Positions 12,750-60,972 of a DNA stretch of 64,000 nucleotides are shown in pieces; position 1 is the first letter of the stretch; every line of letters begins with the position of its first letter. Location of the stretch: positions 310,001 to 374,000 of IMG/VR virus record IMGVR_UViG_3300023179_000009, one strand, 5' to 3'. This stretch comes from a virus. The position numbers and the translations under genes were made by a program. Under the pieces are notes generated by a model. That model was not told the DNA's origin. It was given only the letters and a program-made list of their open reading frames with translations, and made no database searches.

Positions 12750-13496
12750 ATGCTCACTATCATCGACTCTGTCACGGAAGTCAGTTTGTATTCGGGTGAC
12801 GTTACGGTTGACCTTGGTTTGATTCGTAATTTGACTCATGCCGTTAGTATTTTTGGCGGTTTGAGCAAGCCTGATAAAATGCCGTGTTATTGCTACAATC
12901 TGCCAGCAAGTCGTTGTAAGATGGGCAGCAAACTGAATACGGTTCCGGGCAGTGTTTGCTACGGTTGTTACGCCGCTGACGAACTGTCGTGGGTGAAGCG
13001 TAAGAATGCTGCTAATGGCAAGTGGGCGTTGACTCGTTACACGATGCACACGGTACAGCGGGCATTGCAGCGGCGGTTTGAATCGTTGAGCGATCCGCTT
13101 TGGGTTCCCGCTATGGTTTACGCTATCAATCACTATGCCCGTAAGGGCAGTGATTATTTCCGGTGGCATGATAGTGGCGATATTCAGGACCACAATCATT
13201 TCCAGAATATCATGACTGTGTGCGAGTATACTCCTTCGGTAAAACATTGGTTACCGACTCGGGAGTATGCTATTGTCCGGGGGTTTTGTTATCCTGATAA
13301 TCTGTGCGTGCGGTTGTCTGCCCATATGGTTGATGGCATGCCGCCTGATTTTGATATACCAACTAGCACGGTAAGCACTGGGTCGCCTGTGACCGGCGTC
13401 CGTTGCAATGCTCCTTCGAATGATGGGCGTTGTGGATCGTGCCGCTGGTGTTGGGACCGTAATGTCACGAATGTGGATTATCACCATCACAATTAG
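12750..13496 (+). CDS. GP88-like cysteine-rich protein, 248 aa
   Basis: The pattern MPCYCYNLPASRCKMGSKL, GSVCYGCYA, WHDSGDIQDHNHFQN and the C-terminal CGSCRWCW resembles the family named after mycobacteriophage L5 gene product 88 (GP88). Cys and His placement suggests a metal or iron-sulfur site; the reaction is unknown. A full cassette-repeat core (ATACCAACTAG at about 13358) lies inside the gene, read in the third frame as Ile-Pro-Thr-Ser, so it does not stop translation. It converges on a minus-strand gene with a four-base overlap. Confidence 0.7.
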   Translation: MLTIIDSVTEVSLYSGDVTVDLGLIRNLTHAVSIFGGLSKPDKMPCYCYNLPASRCKMGSKLNTVPGSVCYGCYAADELSWVKRKNAANGKWALTRYTMHTVQRALQRRFESLSDPLWVPAMVYAINHYARKGSDYFRWHDSGDIQDHNHFQNIMTVCEYTPSVKHWLPTREYAIVRGFCYPDNLCVRLSAHMVDGMPPDFDIPTSTVSTGSPVTGVRCNAPSNDGRCGSCRWCWDRNVTNVDYHHHN

Positions 13497-13717
13497 GATG
13501 GTTTATGTGGTTGTTTGCCAGTATAGCGGATGATTCCGTTTTTGCCGGGGATTTTACCTTTGTACATAATGTCGATATAGGTAATCAGGTCGGCTGCGAC
13601 TGGGATGCCGTATAATGGTGGGTACTGACCTAGGGCATCGTTAATACTAGGATACAATCCTAGTTTGGCACCTGTCCGGGTGGCATTCTCTTTTAGCAAC
13701 CAGTCTTTAAATTTCAT
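13493..13717 (-). CDS. putative head-packaged protein with prohead-targeting N-terminus, 74 aa
   Basis: Begins MKFKDWLLKE|N, which matches the T4 capsid-targeting pattern (Met-x-x-aromatic, acidic, aromatic-Leu/Ile, x, Glu cleavage). It is a lone minus-strand gene inside the plus-strand array. CGTAAATAC, a late-promoter-like box, lies just upstream of its ATG. The remainder contains a YPSINDALGQYPPLYGIPV segment of unknown role. Confidence 0.7.
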   Translation of the reverse strand: MKFKDWLLKENATRTGAKLGLYPSINDALGQYPPLYGIPVAADLITYIDIMYKGKIPGKNGIIRYTGKQPHKPS

Positions 13718-15440: not shown

Positions 15441-15467
15441 TACCAACTAGCGACCCAGGAGGTTTCT

Positions 15468-15791
15468 ATGAAAATCATTTCTAACGACTTGTATTGTCAA
15501 ATTGAGCGGTGGGACGATCCGGGCGATTACCCGAATGGCTTGGCTGCGGGTCCGCTGCCGAGTTATTCCTATTGTGAATTTGGTGGCGAGTTTGTTTTTG
15601 AAACTGAAAATGACGAGGAACTGAAAGAACTTGATAATGTTGATGATTGGATTGGCGATTGGGTGAGAGATCAGTGTGATATTGGCGGTCATATTTATCC
15701 TTCGTACCGTTGTGAGGTTGAGGGTAATCGTTGTGTGGTGACGATTACCGAAGCCGAAGTTGAAGAGTACGATCCGGCTGACGATTATTGA
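15468..15791 (+). CDS. acidic hypothetical protein, 107 aa
   Basis: Shine-Dalgarno AGGAGG. Beta-rich, net acidic with WDDPGDYPNG near residue 15 and a DWIGDWVRDQ helix. Cys residues are scattered (9, 36, 69, 81, 88). Unknown function. Confidence 0.7.
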   Translation: MKIISNDLYCQIERWDDPGDYPNGLAAGPLPSYSYCEFGGEFVFETENDEELKELDNVDDWIGDWVRDQCDIGGHIYPSYRCEVEGNRCVVTITEAEVEEYDPADDY

Positions 15792-15818
15792 TACCAACTA
15801 AGAACTTGGAGAAAAACA

Positions 15819-16211
15819 ATGAAGACTTTTAACAAAGACTATAAGGCTCGCAACCAAATCATTTTTGGTGACAACAATACGGATAATTGGCCGGGTGGCG
15901 TTAGGCGAATCGAGTCGCTCAGTCTTAAGCAACTGAATGATTTGATTCAAAATGACTTTATTGATCTTGAAGATTGCCAGAATTGCTCTCCTACTGTCGA
16001 GGCTTTTCTAGACTTCATGAAAAAGTATCCGAAGGTTGAGGCCCACGGTTACGCCGTGAGTCACACCCGAGATGATTATCGTGTAAGTCTTGAAGGTTTG
16101 GCTTTTGCTGGCGATGTGAACAAGCAAATGCTTCTTGATTTTGTACACCTGTGTCGTGATGCTGACGAGTTTGTTGCCGATGATAACGAACTGTACGCTT
16201 GGTGGGACTGA
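15819..16211 (+). CDS. acidic hypothetical protein, 130 aa
   Basis: Shine-Dalgarno GGAGAA. Helical N-terminal part (SLSLKQLNDLIQND), then DCQNC and a beta segment around residue 85, acidic C-terminus ending YAWWD. No family. Confidence 0.7.
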   Translation: MKTFNKDYKARNQIIFGDNNTDNWPGGVRRIESLSLKQLNDLIQNDFIDLEDCQNCSPTVEAFLDFMKKYPKVEAHGYAVSHTRDDYRVSLEGLAFAGDVNKQMLLDFVHLCRDADEFVADDNELYAWWD

Positions 16212-16238
16212 TACCAACTAAGGGCGTGGAGGTGCTAC

Positions 16239-16568
16239 ATGAATGACTTTAGAACAGATCATCTTTCTGGCGAAGCCTTGAAGATTGCAAGTGCAATTTC
16301 AGAAATGATCAAGAATGATAAGGGTGAAGATCCCCATGGTGGCGGATGTACTGCTTTTTATACACCAGAGCATTGGCGAGAGCGTGGTGAAAAATATGGC
16401 AAAGACAGCGTGTTGATTCTGTGTCACGATGGCGGTGACTTGGCTCTTTATTGCAATCTTGACTATGCCTACTATCGTGGCCAGGAGCGCATCAATAGTT
16501 GTTTGAAGAATCTTGGTTATTATGTTGAGGCTTGTACTTGTTGGTACAGTGCTGTTTATCCTCTTTAA
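16239..16568 (+). CDS. hypothetical protein with GGGCTAFYTP motif, 109 aa
   Basis: GGAGG precedes the ATG. The run DPHGGGCTAFYTPEHWRERG, CHDGGDLA and YYVEACTCWY indicate a conserved globular phage protein, possibly metal-binding through His/Cys, but I cannot name the family. The following repeat copy reads ATACGAACTAG, a variant. Confidence 0.7.
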   Translation: MNDFRTDHLSGEALKIASAISEMIKNDKGEDPHGGGCTAFYTPEHWRERGEKYGKDSVLILCHDGGDLALYCNLDYAYYRGQERINSCLKNLGYYVEACTCWYSAVYPL

Positions 16569-16612
16569 TTAATACGAACTAGTAAGTCACTCAATTATTA
16601 GGAGAATAAAAA

Positions 16613-17065
16613 ATGGGAATGGGTAGTTTTGCTTGCGATAGTTACGTCATCAGTTACGACAATCTCAAGAAGTTGTGTCCCAAGGAAGTCGAGGCCATCG
16701 AGACTGCCAAGTATTGGGAATTTGTTGGCTGGGGTCCGCTTGCCAACGGCATGAGTTACAACGACACCCAGACTATTGGCGAAGGCGTCTTTGATAGCGA
16801 GGAAGAACTGAGTGATGCTCAGGTTGTGAAGGTTTGCAAGGGTTTCGAGAAGTTGGCAAAAGCATTGTGTGCCGCCTTCAAGAAACGTACTGGCGGTCTG
16901 GAGTTGTTTTTCGATCATTATAACGAAGATGAAGGTGATCGGTACGATAGCGTGGAACACAAGGATGGGTGTGTGTTCTGCGTTGGCAATATGGTGCAGT
17001 TGACTCCTGCTGGCAAGAAGTTCCAGAAGGTTGTTGAGAAGCGTCGTTGGGTTCAGTTTGGTTAA
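16613..17065 (+). CDS. hypothetical protein, 150 aa
   Basis: Shine-Dalgarno AGGAGAA. Mixed fold; the second half contains KRTGGLELFFDHYNEDEGDR and a CVFC pair (residues 122-125). Basic C-terminus. Codon use is noticeably more GC-rich than at the array's start. Confidence 0.75.
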   Translation: MGMGSFACDSYVISYDNLKKLCPKEVEAIETAKYWEFVGWGPLANGMSYNDTQTIGEGVFDSEEELSDAQVVKVCKGFEKLAKALCAAFKKRTGGLELFFDHYNEDEGDRYDSVEHKDGCVFCVGNMVQLTPAGKKFQKVVEKRRWVQFG

Positions 17066-51186: not shown

Positions 51187-51795
51187 ATGATGAGTTTCAA
51201 AGAATATATTCAAGAAGTATCCTTGTATCATGGCACACACGGTGAATTTGAGTTAAAACCCCACAAAGCAAGATACGGAACTGGCGTTAGTTTCACCACC
51301 AGCCCAGAGGTTGCAAGAAATTATGGTCTTGGACGATACAAAGGTGGCAAAAAATCAAACAATCCAGTTATAAAGACAATCAACTACAGTGGCACATCGT
51401 TTAATTTTTACGAACCTGTCCCAGAACGCATGGTTTCGCTTATAAAACAAAAATTAAATCCTTACCTCTCCGAGTTCACTCCTGATAAAAAAGATTTATT
51501 CTTAAAACAAATACAGGGCTTGTGGGCCTCTAGCGGCGAACGCTTCTACAAAGAAGTTCAAAGAAGTTTCGCTAAACGAGGAACTGATCGGGAATGTAAA
51601 TTAGCTAAAAGCCGAAACGACAATTTAGAAATTTGTCAAAAATGCAGTATTTTTGACCAAATGCCTGATTTATTAAATCAAATTTTGCTTGATATCGGCT
51701 ATGATTCGTTGTGCTACGACGACACGAACGACGGCGTTTCTCATAAATGTTATTTTTTAATGCATAGTGGCCAACAAACCGGCCAAAATAAGTAA
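51187..51795 (+). CDS. ADP-ribosyltransferase-like, probably head-packaged, 202 aa
   Basis: Starts M(M)SFKEYIQE|V, a capsid-targeting pattern with predicted cleavage after Glu. The mature part opens SLYHGTHGEFELKP and GTGVSFTTSPEVARNYG, resembling the R/Y-H-G and Ser-Phe-Thr-Thr motifs of mono-ADP-ribosyltransferase folds. A catalytic Glu is not obvious. T4 injects the ADP-ribosyltransferase Alt in the same way, so an injected effector is the natural reading. Confidence 0.65.
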   Translation: MMSFKEYIQEVSLYHGTHGEFELKPHKARYGTGVSFTTSPEVARNYGLGRYKGGKKSNNPVIKTINYSGTSFNFYEPVPERMVSLIKQKLNPYLSEFTPDKKDLFLKQIQGLWASSGERFYKEVQRSFAKRGTDRECKLAKSRNDNLEICQKCSIFDQMPDLLNQILLDIGYDSLCYDDTNDGVSHKCYFLMHSGQQTGQNK

Positions 51796-54430: not shown

Positions 54431-56584
54431 TCAACTATAACCAAGAGGGTTTCCTTGAACAATTGGATTGCCCGATGGTATTGGAGAACTCAAAGATTCA
54501 GGCTCGTCTGTTATGGTTTCCCCATCTTTAACCAAAGCAACCTTTCTTTTGCCTTGACTATTTATAATTTCAAAATAACCATCTCTTTGTAACGATCTTC
54601 TTTGTCCATTTTCTATAACAATAGCAGTGTCTAGACCACCTTCTCCAAAATAACTAACCGATTGAGGGGAAAAATCATAGTTATAAGTCTGAACTGACGT
54701 AAAACCACCTGCAACCTCAAGAAACTTCAACGCAATATTTTCTGCATCTTCATTGGAGAGATATTGACTATCCTTTCTTGCAATCACAAGATATGCAATC
54801 GACTTCCTTCCCGACAATCCTTGGACACAATGATCATCACTATCATCGCCATCTTCATTAATCAGTTGTGCTAGTCCAGTAGAGTCTCCTGGAACTATTA
54901 TTAGTTGATTGACTGAAGGATCGCTTCCCGATTCTCCGCCATCGCCCTCCCTGTTAACTTTGATAAAGACCGTATATGTCGATCCCTGATGGGCCACTAT
55001 AACGGCGGATTCATTTTGAGTGTTGTTGTCCGAGCCTAGATTTCCAGTGACAGAGAACTCTTCTATGTTCACATTAGTGGCCATCATTACAAACATTCCT
55101 GGATAAAGGTTAGTAAAGTAGCTACTTCCTTCTCCGAAATAAGCATCGCCAGAAGACACCTGTCCGTCCATAAAAGGATTATAAACAGGGTCGCTATTTT
55201 CGTATTCTTGGAAATTATCTTCATCCAAACAGGCAGAATGGGTGTAAGGAATGCAAGAACCTCTATCTGCATTATTTCCTTGAACATCCTCCCAAGCCTG
55301 GGTCAGATTGGTGTTCAAGAAATTTGAACCATCATACATGTCATCTCCGCCATCACCGATTCCGAAGGAAACATAACCGAACAACCTCTTGCTGGTATCT
55401 ATTTGGCCTGTAGAACTTAGCTTGAGAAAACCATATACCGCACGGTCACCAAATGAATTGAAGCCGCCAACACAAAGCACATCTCCACCGGAGGTTATCA
55501 CTATATTTTGTATTCTAGCACCCTCCCAATCGTTTGTATGGTCTCCAACTCCAATTCCTACATTGAACGATGTGTCTTTTGTGCCGTCAGTGTTGAATCT
55601 GACTATGTGGCCGCATCTTTCTCCATCTAACTCATTGAACCATCCGCCGACAACAACCTTGTTGTCGCCTTGCACAGCAACAGCTTGAACATTATCGCTG
55701 AGACCAGAGCCTGCTATTTCGAATGTTGAATCTAAACCTCCATCATTGTTTAAACGAATGACTTTGTTGCAGGGTGAGCCGTTGAATTCGCTGAACCAAC
55801 CCCCAACCAACAACTTTCCATTAGAGTCTTTTTTAATTGATGCAACTCTGCTGTTGGACGAAGCTGAAAAACCACCATCTGTTGTCCCATCGTTGTTTAA
55901 CCTTGCTATTTTTCCTGAAAATTCTCCACCGATATAAATCTTTCCATCAGAATCAACAAGAATATCATGCACTTGGCCGTTGGCTACAGTTACATTGCTT
56001 GTAAATGTTCCATCCAAAACACCATCTGAATTTAATTTTACAATTCTATCAACAGAAGTTCCATTATATTGATTAAAAGCTCCTCCAACCAAAATACTAT
56101 CGTCAGAAAGAACTCTTACAACCAAAGCATTGTTGTTAAACCCAGACTGCCCAACATTAAACGTTGTGTCAACCGATCCATCTGTATTAAGTCTGGCTAT
56201 TTTTCCGTAGGATGTTCCTCCAATACTGCTAAAATGACCAACAATGATTAATTTGCCACTAGACTGAGTAGCGACTGATCTCACAAAACCACTATCTGAT
56301 GTAGGAAAATTTGGGCATGTAAAAGTTTCGTCCAATGTAAAGTCGCTGTTGTATCTGCGAACGTTTTTTCCAAAATTATCGCCACCGTCAATGCCAACCC
56401 AAATGTATTTTCCGTTGGACAATGGATAAAATTGGCTACCAAGCGGATCATAATCTACATTATCTCCGTACTCGTTCTTAGCATACGAAAAGTCGTCCGT
56501 AAAAACTCTCAGATCTGGAACGAGATCTGTTATTTCTTCGTAATTAGAATTTAGATTCGACAGTATCTCATTAATATTTGACAT
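54431..56584 (-). CDS. beta-propeller (delta-60 repeat) virion or fibre protein, 717 aa
   Basis: AGAGGAAAA precedes the ATG. Residues 60-400 hold about seven copies of a 50-60 residue repeat: GGxFSxxNGxxxxxIxRLNxDGxxDxTFxxG (for example GKIARLNTDGSVDTTFNVG), the delta-60 repeat, predicted to fold as a propeller. The C-terminal 250 residues are Ser/Gly/Asp-rich and end with a knob-like segment. Likely a tail fibre, tip or decoration protein. Confidence 0.75.
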   Translation of the reverse strand: MSNINEILSNLNSNYEEITDLVPDLRVFTDDFSYAKNEYGDNVDYDPLGSQFYPLSNGKYIWVGIDGGDNFGKNVRRYNSDFTLDETFTCPNFPTSDSGFVRSVATQSSGKLIIVGHFSSIGGTSYGKIARLNTDGSVDTTFNVGQSGFNNNALVVRVLSDDSILVGGAFNQYNGTSVDRIVKLNSDGVLDGTFTSNVTVANGQVHDILVDSDGKIYIGGEFSGKIARLNNDGTTDGGFSASSNSRVASIKKDSNGKLLVGGWFSEFNGSPCNKVIRLNNDGGLDSTFEIAGSGLSDNVQAVAVQGDNKVVVGGWFNELDGERCGHIVRFNTDGTKDTSFNVGIGVGDHTNDWEGARIQNIVITSGGDVLCVGGFNSFGDRAVYGFLKLSSTGQIDTSKRLFGYVSFGIGDGGDDMYDGSNFLNTNLTQAWEDVQGNNADRGSCIPYTHSACLDEDNFQEYENSDPVYNPFMDGQVSSGDAYFGEGSSYFTNLYPGMFVMMATNVNIEEFSVTGNLGSDNNTQNESAVIVAHQGSTYTVFIKVNREGDGGESGSDPSVNQLIIVPGDSTGLAQLINEDGDDSDDHCVQGLSGRKSIAYLVIARKDSQYLSNEDAENIALKFLEVAGGFTSVQTYNYDFSPQSVSYFGEGGLDTAIVIENGQRRSLQRDGYFEIINSQGKRKVALVKDGETITDEPESLSSPIPSGNPIVQGNPLGYS

Positions 56585-56644: not shown

Positions 56645-57157
56645 TTAAATATTGTTTTGAATAAAAGCCTGAGTTGAGTTGCTTTGATCAGGGCTGTTAT
56701 TTTTTTGTTCGTGATTTCTAATATTTTCACGAACCGCATTGGCAACCTGGACGGGTGTAGCAAAAAAACTATCTTGATCAGGTCTATGCAAACGATGAGA
56801 AGCGGTGAGAGTTTCACTTCCGTATTTCATATTACCGCCAAGTTCATCTAAAGAACTAAGATTAAAAACTATATTTTTTGAACCATTTTTATGATCATAT
56901 TCTATAGGTCCAGGCTCTCGGGCAGCATACATTTGATCAATAATACCAACTGTTAACAGATAGTGGCGACCACTCTCGCTCATGCCACGATAAGTTGCCT
57001 CAATTCCCATCTTGGCACCACCGCCGTACAAACTAGGAAGTTCTTCTTTATTTTTTAATGTCCAAGTTCCCATATCGAAATAATTTAAAACTTTTTCAAA
57101 ATCATCTGGAAAATTTTCCATTGTTGCTTCAGTCAGGTATTGTTTAAAATTTCTCAT
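56645..57157 (-). CDS. putative head-packaged protein, 170 aa
   Basis: Begins MRNFKQYLTE|AT, the targeting/cleavage pattern, with TATAAATA eight bases upstream of the ATG. The mature part (LYGGGAKMGIEATYRGMSES, NMKYGSETLTASHRL) is alpha/beta with a disordered Asn/Gln/Ser tail. Function unknown. Confidence 0.7.
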   Translation of the reverse strand: MRNFKQYLTEATMENFPDDFEKVLNYFDMGTWTLKNKEELPSLYGGGAKMGIEATYRGMSESGRHYLLTVGIIDQMYAAREPGPIEYDHKNGSKNIVFNLSSLDELGGNMKYGSETLTASHRLHRPDQDSFFATPVQVANAVRENIRNHEQKNNSPDQSNSTQAFIQNNI

Positions 57158-57179: not shown

Positions 57180-57584
57180 ATGTTAACTTTTGAAGAGTGG
57201 ATACAAAAAAATCACGCTGATTTTATAGATGAGGGAAAACTAGCCGATTTTGGAAAAGCAGCAGTTGCAACGGCTGGTTTATTGGGCGGAACCCTGTTGT
57301 CTAATCAAAGTTTTGCTGATAATAACCGTCCAGTAATGCAACAAGTTTCTGCCAATCCAACACAAGCAAATTACTCACAAAATCATGGCAAAGTGCCATT
57401 TAATCCAAAAATTGGACCGCAACCAGCAAACAAAAAAGCCAACCCGCTGCAAATTTGGAAACACCAAGTTAGATATGTACAAGATGTTGAAGCGAAAATG
57501 CGAAGAGGCATGAGACCTACACCGGAGTATTTAATATTAAAACAATATTATAAAAACACTCTGCCCGACGCTCCTGTTAATTAA
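57180..57584 (+). CDS. putative head-packaged protein, 134 aa
   Basis: Begins MLTFEEWIQKNHADFIDE|GK. A hydrophobic segment AVATAGLLGGTLL follows (residues 31-43), then Gln/Asn/Pro-rich disorder and a C-terminal helix. The hydrophobic stretch after the peptide is unusual and might insert in a membrane on ejection. Overlaps the convergent gene by eight bases. Confidence 0.65.
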   Translation: MLTFEEWIQKNHADFIDEGKLADFGKAAVATAGLLGGTLLSNQSFADNNRPVMQQVSANPTQANYSQNHGKVPFNPKIGPQPANKKANPLQIWKHQVRYVQDVEAKMRRGMRPTPEYLILKQYYKNTLPDAPVN

Positions 57585-57863: not shown

Positions 57864-58454
57864 TTACATACTTGCAAATTCTGGAATCCTTTGTTTGATC
57901 ATGTTCCAATTTTGTTGAACCCAATTATGGAAATTAACTTCAGCATTTTTTGGACCACGCTCATCGGTTTTTCCGTAATTTTGCATTTCTAATTCATGTG
58001 TTGCTTCGTGAACAATTGTGCTTGCAATCTCTACAATTGCTTCTTTTGTGTCTCCCAATTCACGAACTACCCTAGCAACATTTACTCTTATGGTATCGGA
58101 AGGTTGTAGTTGTCTCTCATCGATATCTGGGAAGTACTGTTTTATTACTACTGTCGGAAGAGTTTGAAGTTTTTGGTTGATCATCATATCTTTTGGAAAC
58201 AACAACTTAAACTTGTCTACTATATCTTTGCCTATTGTACGGCGATTTTCACGACTCATGTACATGCCGTAAACCCCAGAACTAAGATTTGCTATTGTAT
58301 TGATATTTTTTAATAATTGTTGTTGAGTTGATCTTCCATATAATTGGACTAATTTAATACTTAATTTTGCTTTATTGTAAATAGATTCTATTTGAGACGA
58401 ATCCACGTTCTCTGTTCCTAGCGTTGTTTGGTTAAAAAATTCTTTAAAATTCAT
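57864..58454 (-). CDS. putative head-packaged zinc metallopeptidase, 196 aa
   Basis: Starts MNFKEFFNQTTLGTE, a weaker targeting-type N-terminus. IVHEATHELEMQ (residues 147-158) is a clear HExxH zinc motif with Glu two residues on, in a helix. The final region (FHNWVQQNWNMIKQRIP) is helical. A protease carried in the head could process host or virion proteins at infection (inference). Confidence 0.7.
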   Translation of the reverse strand: MNFKEFFNQTTLGTENVDSSQIESIYNKAKLSIKLVQLYGRSTQQQLLKNINTIANLSSGVYGMYMSRENRRTIGKDIVDKFKLLFPKDMMINQKLQTLPTVVIKQYFPDIDERQLQPSDTIRVNVARVVRELGDTKEAIVEIASTIVHEATHELEMQNYGKTDERGPKNAEVNFHNWVQQNWNMIKQRIPEFASM

Positions 58455-58514: not shown

Positions 58515-59381
58515 ATGAGAGATTTTTTACAATTTCTATCCGAAGAAAGAACAAAGAATAAAAATGCTAAAATAAAAATTTTAGCCATTCAAGGTTCTGC
58601 CAGAAACGATAATTGTTGCCCTGATCACGAATCTAAAAGTTATCGATTATTAAAAAATGCAATCAAAGATAGACAAGATGTGATTTTTGATGTAATAGAC
58701 CTTTCTGTGAAGTGTGACGGAAATGTTATTCAACCTTGCAAAGCTTGCATAAGTACAGCCGGGGGCATTCATTGCCATTTTCCTTGCGATTGCTATAGTA
58801 AAGGCAGTAAAGTAAAAGATTTCATGCACGAGGAAGATGTTTATAAAAAATTAGAAGAATGCGACGGATTTGTTGTTTTTTCTCCGATTAATTGGGATGC
58901 TCCCAGTAGCGTGGTGAAAAGTTTTTTTGACCGATTGGTTTGTTGCAGCCTTACTCTAACCACACAAGATGCCAATGAAATATTGGGGGATGATTTAAAA
59001 AATAGTGAAGTGACACGACCATTAGCCAAAAGTGGGAAATATAACAAATTGTTGAAAAATCACTTGGAAGGAAAACACGCTGCCTTTTTTATGCAAGGCG
59101 ACAATGGTGCAGATGATTACGTGGATATAAAAAAACCAGATTCTTACATCGAATATACCAAAGGCAAAATCTTGAACTCTGATCCTATTCGAAGTATTGA
59201 ACCCATTGTAAAGCAAATGGTTTACTCTGGCATTTATGTAAAAGAAGGATGTGTAGATGGTTTAATATCTGGTTACGGTACAGACTATCCAACAAATGAT
59301 GACAAATTGGAGCAAGAATTATTTAAAAGATCTAGAAAAGTTGTTGATAATTTAATTGATTTTATATCAAAAAATAAATAA
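58515..59381 (+). CDS. flavodoxin-fold NAD(P)H:FMN reductase-like, putative head-packaged, 288 aa
   Basis: First residues MRDFLQFLSE|ERTK match the targeting pattern and sit ahead of an otherwise normal flavodoxin-like start (IKILAIQGSARNDNCCP, the FMN phosphate loop). CKACISTAG and VVFSPINWDAPSSVVKSFFDR fit the NADPH-dependent FMN reductase family. The N-terminal extension is extra to the family. TATAAATT lies four bases upstream of the ATG. Confidence 0.75.
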   Translation: MRDFLQFLSEERTKNKNAKIKILAIQGSARNDNCCPDHESKSYRLLKNAIKDRQDVIFDVIDLSVKCDGNVIQPCKACISTAGGIHCHFPCDCYSKGSKVKDFMHEEDVYKKLEECDGFVVFSPINWDAPSSVVKSFFDRLVCCSLTLTTQDANEILGDDLKNSEVTRPLAKSGKYNKLLKNHLEGKHAAFFMQGDNGADDYVDIKKPDSYIEYTKGKILNSDPIRSIEPIVKQMVYSGIYVKEGCVDGLISGYGTDYPTNDDKLEQELFKRSRKVVDNLIDFISKNK

Positions 59382-60122: not shown

Positions 60123-60548
60123 TTAGAATACTGATTTTGTCATCTTTTTTAATGGAATTCGAAATAATATTTGCGATTCACCACCGCTGTAGTTATATTC
60201 TTTTCCACGATATTCAAAAGTAACATGATCCGCAAAAGAGTCTTCGTAATCTCTTATTATAAAATTTGCTAAACCGGGTCTTGGTAAAACTGGTGGTTTT
60301 AATTCTTTGTTTCTTTTTCTATTTAAAAAATATTGCTTTATTCTATCACGAAGATTTCGAACTTCGTGAATTGATGCTGGCTCATATCCAAAATGCTGTG
60401 CTAAATTTGCTGCTATTTCATAACAATTGCTTTCAGATTGATTCATGGCTGTTGTTCCGCCACGAATCAATTTCAATTTATCAGCAAACTGAAAGCCGAT
60501 ATCATTAACGTGTGGTAAATTTATTTCTATAAAATTTTTAAATTTCAT
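60123..60548 (-). CDS. putative head-packaged protein, 141 aa
   Basis: ATG at 60548 opens MKFKNFIEINLPH, a targeting-like N-terminus lacking the Glu at the usual place. A TGCTG-TAAATA-CAGCA palindrome (60548-60563) with a late-like TGTAAATA box overlaps its start. The body includes NCYEIAANLAQHFGYEPASI. Unknown. Confidence 0.6.
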   Translation of the reverse strand: MKFKNFIEINLPHVNDIGFQFADKLKLIRGGTTAMNQSESNCYEIAANLAQHFGYEPASIHEVRNLRDRIKQYFLNRKRNKELKPPVLPRPGLANFIIRDYEDSFADHVTFEYRGKEYNYSGGESQILFRIPLKKMTKSVF

Positions 60549-60555
60549 GCTGTAT

Positions 60556-60972
60556 TTACAGCACATCATTCGAAATATATTTTTCTAAACCGACTGCCAA
60601 CTCTGGACAAAGAGTTTGAATCCATCCATTCTTCTTAGCATACAAACAACCGGGCTTGCCCGTTTCTTCACAAATTTTATAACTAATTGCTTCGGCTGTT
60701 CGCACCACGCCATGAACAAATTCATCCCCGCCTTCATAATAAAGACGCAAACCACCGAATTTTTCTTTAACCTGGGTGAAGTAAAAAGGTATTGTTTTTT
60801 TATTATTTTGTATGTGGGTTTTTATAGCAAAACAACACCTGTCGATAAGGTCATACCATCCATCGCCGCAACGAAAATAAAAAAAAGTATCTTTTAATGT
60901 CCTGGGTTCTTCCGGAAGCGGAAAAAAATCAGGATATTTTTCTACTATTTTTTCATTTAAAATTTTATTCAT
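60556..60972 (-). CDS. conserved phage protein, tandem paralogue A, 138 aa
   Basis: Contains FRCGDGWYDLIDRCC, QVKEKFGGLRLYYEGGDE, AEAISYKICEETGKPG and WIQTLCPE: a family common in phages, often in several copies, of unknown function. 4-base overlap with its paralogue upstream, about half the motif residues identical. Confidence 0.8.
   Translation of the reverse strand: MNKILNEKIVEKYPDFFPLPEEPRTLKDTFFYFRCGDGWYDLIDRCCFAIKTHIQNNKKTIPFYFTQVKEKFGGLRLYYEGGDEFVHGVVRTAEAISYKICEETGKPGCLYAKKNGWIQTLCPELAVGLEKYISNDVL

Follow-up and report, generated by a model that had tools for sequence, protein, structure and literature searches.

The window analysed here is a stretch of 64,000 nucleotides, corresponding to positions 310001-374000 of an IMG/VR virus record of 458,813 bases. 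Near its end lies a gene, single-copy in the record, whose product has the N-terminus MNFKEFFNQTTLGTENVD (MNFKEFFNQ) and carries STIVHEATHELE (IVHEATHELE) further in. The first-pass annotation had placed both elements in one protein, and both were found exactly so in a minus-strand ORF (Table 1). A first scan of IMG/VR gave two loci with relatives at 46% identity, and a relative at 43% identity, the only one in the phage collection, was found in LR756511.1, a 595-kb uncultured phage. A profile search built on three sequences gave 39 IMG/VR loci with relatives of the peptidase. Our alignment of 26 copies, from which L004, the truncated L046 and near-identical copies were omitted, reaches down to 42-47% identity, and the ORF is a genuine conserved gene.

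Table 1. Features of the window discussed in the text; positions are counted from the first base of the window.
Feature	Position	Strand	Basis or remark
Predicted metallopeptidase gene	57864..58454	-	196 aa, ATG start; ORF, relatives, 26-copy alignment, AlphaFold2
Capsid-targeting-like box MNFKEFFNQT, residues 1-10 (F3, F6, F7)	58425..58454	-	Alignment, T4 comparison
HExxH zinc motif HEATH, residues 149-153	57996..58010	-	Within predicted helix 137-160
E172, candidate third zinc ligand	57939..57941	-	Within predicted helix 166-181
202-aa protein, box MMSFKEYIQE with a YHGT stretch after it	51187..51795	+	Possible ADP-ribosyltransferase
170-aa protein, box MRNFKQYLTEA	56645..57157	-	No family in Pfam/PHROGs
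134-aa protein, box MLTFEEWIQK	57180..57584	+	No family in Pfam/PHROGs
FMN-reductase/flavodoxin-like protein, box MRDFLQFLSEE, divergent neighbour	58515..59381	+	Pfam FMN_red, E=4.4e-9
141-aa protein, box MKFKNFIEI	60123..60548	-	Internal ATG of the 148-aa ORF 60123-60569

Predicted fold of the peptidase

Searches of the window peptidase against Pfam, PHROGs, PDB sequences (phmmer) and a PDB profile returned no family above cutoff, and it had no PHROG or Pfam match to a gp21-type maturation protease. Among bacterial and archaeal genomes (genome_contigs), 406 pattern matches were obtained, none of which was confirmed as a cellular relative. Weak Pfam matches to Inos-1-P_synth and poxvirus VLTF3 among the 26 members look like chance and were set aside.

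All 26 aligned copies share H149, E150, H153 and E172, together with F3, F175 and W178. The last histidine and E172 are 19 residues apart, which gives the arrangement HExxH-x18-E. AlphaFold2, run on this alignment with a mean pLDDT of 78.9, predicts a helix at residues 20-42, strands, and then the helices at 137-160 and 166-181, so that HExxH and E172 fall in successive helices that follow a core containing strands. The same layout is described for the zincin domains of polyvalent proteins (PMC5512222). The model points to E172 as the candidate third zinc ligand, a residue that the first-pass annotation had left to structure prediction.

Structural comparison of the model points modestly towards a zincin. 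Foldseek matches in the PDB were weak (zincin-like 3e11 at E=0.78, with no match below E 0.46), and the best among viral structures was a SprT-like protein (E=0.045). When 630 PDB chains were re-aligned with VIA-align, the first six rows were all zincins (3e11, YbeY three times and selecase twice; Z 7.9-5.7), and as these Z values are modest, a zincin fold is likely, short of proof. A profile search against all PDB sequences gave no match. MPTase-PolyVal (PF18818) was matched by none of the 26 members at E<=0.1, an hhalign comparison with an ArdC/MPTase protein covered only 18 columns around HExxH at a probability of 14%, and SprT-like (PF10263) was matched by one of the 26 at E=0.056, under the curated cutoff. 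Taken with the invariant motif, the predicted layout gives computational support to the annotation as an HExxH metallopeptidase, and the protein is probably a zinc metallopeptidase of the gluzincin type.

An N-terminal box shared with other genes

The peptidase begins with a short box in which F3 is invariant and most relatives have W at position 6. The pattern F-x-x-[WF]-[hydrophobic] is kept across the family, typically in the form FKxWLE, and at 37 of 40 loci the Met-initiated reading opens with M-x(0-4)-[FW]-x-x-[FWY]-[LIVFM]. Of the three exceptions, two (L009 and L044) are fused ORFs whose box falls at the junction, without a Met of its own, and the third, L046, is cut off at a contig end and has the box. 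In L009 (7440-8591) the metallopeptidase continues in frame from a YHGT-containing domain that is ADP-ribosyltransferase (ART)-like by eye and unconfirmed as such by Pfam, and in L044 the peptidase stands behind another cargo-type domain. The L009 fusion could be a two-payload protein or an effect of assembly.

We translated the T4 internal proteins as controls: IPI begins with MKTFKEFTSTTT (MKTFKEF), and IPII and IPIII both begin with MKTYQEFIAEA. The i/i+3 spacing of the aromatic residues is the same in all three and in the peptidase box. A T4 review assigns the targeting of IPIII chiefly to residues 4 and 7 and its processing to residues 8 and 10 (PMC9026906); the box aromatics correspond to the first of these pairs. 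The T4-like cleavage position is occupied by Glu in 21 of the 26 copies and by Gln in the window copy; of the T4 proteins, IPII and IPIII have the gp21 cleavage Glu after the box, and IPI is without a Glu at the same position.

In a search for late promoters, exact copies of TATAAATA were found no more than 70 bases upstream of the peptidase gene in 2 of 22 copies against 0.51 expected, which is not significant, and the window copy has no clear T4-type late promoter, its closest match to TATAAATA having two mismatches. Across the window, five exact copies fall in 48-64 kb and a single one in the other 48 kb, a pattern suggestive of late promoters clustering in the former part; one stands 13 bases upstream of the start of the 170-aa gene.

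The box is present on 7 of the 146 ORFs of the window, with 6 of 24 in 48-64 kb and 1 of 122 elsewhere (Fisher p = 7e-5). The six are the peptidase, the possible ART, the FMN-reductase-like protein, and the 170-aa, 134-aa and 148-aa ORFs. The ART assignment is weak, resting on an ART-PolyVal match at E=0.016, below the Pfam cutoff; L127 has a similarly weak match, and no relative of the window protein was found in viral_contigs. Beside the boxed cluster lies a 717-aa DUF5122 beta-propeller protein (54431-56584, minus strand), which is probably a tail or fibre protein. Small boxed proteins at 13493-13717 and at L008:12961-13227 (both minus strand) have in common a GIYPPLYG-like stretch that is also found in L044 and L080.

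Enrichment of the box was also seen in other genomes. In 29 representative loci out of the 40, it stands on 51 of 443 distinct ORFs neighbouring the peptidase relatives (shuffle mean 6.06), compared with 20 of 1574 internal Mets. Near the best 80 of 372 related major capsid protein (MCP) genes it was counted on 102 of 969 ORFs (shuffle mean 16.23, maximum 27), or on 82 of 969 once portal proteins are excluded; these begin MxxWxDFF, are regarded as false positives and are otherwise counted in the boxed totals. Every survey used greedy ORF calling and includes some spurious ORFs. Compared without their first 15 residues, 167 pooled boxed ORFs, 21 of them portal proteins, form 99 clusters. The motif is short and degenerate, and 7 of 45 T4 CDS fit a looser form of it, three of these being internal proteins. 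In RaK2, a jumbo phage of the T4 superfamily, the 90 kb surrounding the head genes comprise 78 ORFs, of which only 4 bear the box, which shows that the tag is not universal.

Some boxed genes recur close to the head genes. In the peptidase's own genome, three tandem boxed genes lie beyond the major capsid gene, beginning with MKTFQEWLNEN, MKTFQRFFLTEEN and MKTFLNWLKNK, and another boxed gene, which belongs to an 18-member cluster, lies between the portal and gp21 genes. The gene at L007:18146-18493 (minus strand), for about 115 aa and likewise between portal and gp21, recurs in related phages as part of this cluster. In T4, core genes 67 and 68 sit between portal and gp21, and by position, there being no PHROG match, the 115-aa protein may be a prohead core protein that takes the place of gp67/gp68. 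A further recurrent boxed family, seen in L009 (1845-2471, minus strand), L016, L034 and L037 and marked by KDACYHKVKxRY...SAYASGALVRCRKVGA, is probably widespread in related phages.

Pfam searches on 43 boxed neighbours identified GNAT acetyltransferases in three, as well as Gp88, FMN_red, a HAD phosphatase and, weakly, PARP. Ten boxed proteins searched as a second set included a NIF phosphatase (L088), a polyA-polymerase/HD protein (L049) and a UvrD helicase (L081). At L069:18592-19170 (minus strand), near a related capsid gene, a boxed protein matches C39 cysteine peptidases (Pfam E=1.6e-16) and would, judged by this match, add a second peptidase type to the tagged set. In L056, a boxed protein (15466-16758) some 4 kb from the capsid gene combines ArdC-N (E=2.4e-7) with a weak MPTase-PolyVal match (0.02), making it a candidate head-packaged anti-restriction protein. 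The tagged set covers much of the spectrum expected for injected conflict proteins, and includes some nucleic-acid enzymes whose fit is not obvious.

Head genes and distribution of the peptidase

Genes for three head proteins were identified in the genome: a protease of gp21 type (phrog_207, E=6e-49), a portal (phrog_213) and a major head protein of T4 type (phrog_138). The last of these, the capsid gene, lies 74 kb from the peptidase gene. In the relatives' loci, MCP and peptidase occur together in 18 of 39, several of them near-identical, and a gp21-type protease gene occurs in 16 of 39. Where both genes are present, identity to the proteins of our genome is 76-85% for the capsid proteins and 46-57% for the peptidases.

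Viewed from the capsid gene, the peptidase is rare. It is present at just one of the best 80 of 372 MCP loci; 41 of the 79 loci without it are under 12 kb and the records may be fragments, so absence is weak evidence where they are short. A search of whole records found it in none of 13 related MCP-bearing records, with positive controls found in 4 of 4. Among these 13 are records of 343 kb and 532 kb whose MCPs are 82-85% identical. On both counts the peptidase gene is accessory, and this patchy distribution speaks for injected cargo of an accessory kind rather than for a protease essential to maturation, a role weakened by the absences from 13 of 13 whole records and 79 of 80 MCP loci. The first-pass annotation had offered two roles, maturation of head proteins and attack on host proteins after injection. 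Given the 13 whole records without the gene and the phages' own gp21-type protease genes, the second fits better and the first loses ground.

A candidate injected peptidase and its possible delivery system

Phages can inject anti-defence proteins along with their DNA, as the T4 internal proteins illustrate, and to our knowledge little has been established about the repertoire of injected proteins outside the relatives of T4. We consider it somewhat probable that the protein described here is a small gluzincin-type metallopeptidase that is loaded into the head through a T4-type capsid-targeting sequence (CTS), injected, and used to cleave a host protein. The peptidase would be made late, its N-terminal box would dock it to the scaffold core of the prohead, and it would be retained in the head amid the packaged DNA. 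Upon infection it would be ejected with the DNA into the bacterium and would there cleave a host protein, most likely one with a defence or regulatory function. The likeness of the box to that of T4, its conservation and its enrichment near head genes give the proposed head-targeting N-terminus computational support. Counting against the model are the Gln at the cleavage position, the window copy's lack of a late-promoter signal, the internal position of the box in the fused ORFs L009 and L044, the weak Foldseek and modest zincin scores with no PDB profile match, the shortness and degeneracy of the motif, and the scarcity of boxed genes in RaK2. Should the box direct packaging here, the proteins that uncultured giant phages inject could be listed from their sequences, and an injected metallopeptidase that stands alone would be a concrete candidate for an attack on host proteins in the first minute of infection.

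An unlikely alternative is that the peptidase, once packaged, does its work in the prohead, where it would join the gp21-type protease in trimming core or internal proteins or in releasing fused cargo domains. The loci shared with the major capsid gene and the L009 and L044 fusions behind cargo-type domains, with the box at the junction, would suit such a role, and Iyer et al. propose autoprocessing by packaged zincin domains (PMC5512222) and a possible part in maturation for another zincin in a jumbo-phage survey (PMC7824862). However, a peptidase missing from all 13 MCP-bearing records searched whole, with all controls found, and from all but one MCP locus is hard to reconcile with it, as are the gp21-type protease genes already present in our genome and in the relatives' loci.

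We also judge it improbable, slightly more so, that the box is not head-targeting and that the peptidase is an ordinary intracellular enzyme, the box serving, for example, to dock it to a phage structure or regulator. The box is short, stands also on helicase- and nucleotidyltransferase-like proteins and yields some chance matches, and the window copy is without a late promoter and the cleavage glutamate. Nevertheless, its aromatic spacing equals that of the T4 internal proteins, it is enriched around head genes and strongly clustered in the window, and it marks a gene between portal and gp21. Finally, a zincin that has degenerated, lost its peptidase activity and been retained as an internal protein with a structural or DNA-binding role would agree with the modest structural match and with the relevant passages of PMC9026906, which give no enzymatic activity for IPI, IPII and IPIII, but is very improbable given four catalytic or ligand residues invariant in 26 copies, even at 42-47% identity.

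Beyond the injected-peptidase model itself, we tentatively suggest, as an idea that may well prove wrong, that these giant phages have a general cargo system built on one short N-terminal tag, by which a large and fast-changing set of enzymes reaches the head and is injected. The payloads would then be metallo- and cysteine peptidases, possible ADP-ribosyltransferases, acetyltransferases, phosphatases, anti-restriction proteins and an FMN reductase. The metallopeptidase family would be among the most widely shared of them, cutting a host protein at the onset of infection, and the tag would allow the injected protein arsenal to be read off a virus genome.

Both CTS cargo and zincin domains that are packaged have been described before (PMC9026906, PMC5512222), and in the open-licence literature we found neither a metallopeptidase family that stands alone behind a T4-type CTS nor a CTS inventory for metagenomic giant phages. 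The first-pass annotation called a packaged peptidase other than the prohead protease unusual, which is too strong, since zincin domains are described in the packaged polyvalent proteins N4 vRNAP and P1 DdrB (PMC5512222), and the HExxH domain of N4 vRNAP is reported elsewhere as well (PMC12633501). These zincins (MPTase-PolyVal; N4 vRNAP, P1 DdrB, ArdC) resemble our protein in having an HExxH helix and, next after it, a helix with the glutamate, in being domains of packaged or transferred proteins, and in their ART-like and ArdC-like partners, which are found nearby here too. They differ in that our protein is stand-alone behind a CTS and none of its 26 members has a Pfam match above cutoff. 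The jumbo-phage survey lists SprT-like and ArdC-like metallopeptidases that are probably aimed at host proteins (PMC7824862). Minigluzincins, selecase, YbeY and acel_2062 (3e11) gave the best structural re-alignments (Z 7.9-4.5), but at 8-14% identity and with no sequence-profile relation to the PDB chains. The prohead protease gp21 is likewise a head-associated phage peptidase, with a gp21-type gene in the same genome, but is a serine peptidase (PMC9026906) encoded by a separate gene. Alt of T4, compared here by its literature description only, is a packaged ADP-ribosyltransferase and thus also an enzyme payload of the head, of a different enzyme class. The closest parallel in delivery is with IPI, which is injected and inhibits a restriction enzyme (PMC3012670), and IPIII, which is injected and required to infect strain ECOR17 (PMC9391042). 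The T4 internal proteins and the boxed proteins have in common an aromatic i/i+3 box within 7-10 residues of the N-terminus, head genes of T4 type, and accessory, variable occurrence with many unrelated payloads. In our phages, by contrast, the box favours W (F-x-x-W-L-E), the window copy is without the glutamate at the cleavage position, and the payload, which would be packaged in the same manner, is a predicted zincin-type metallopeptidase.
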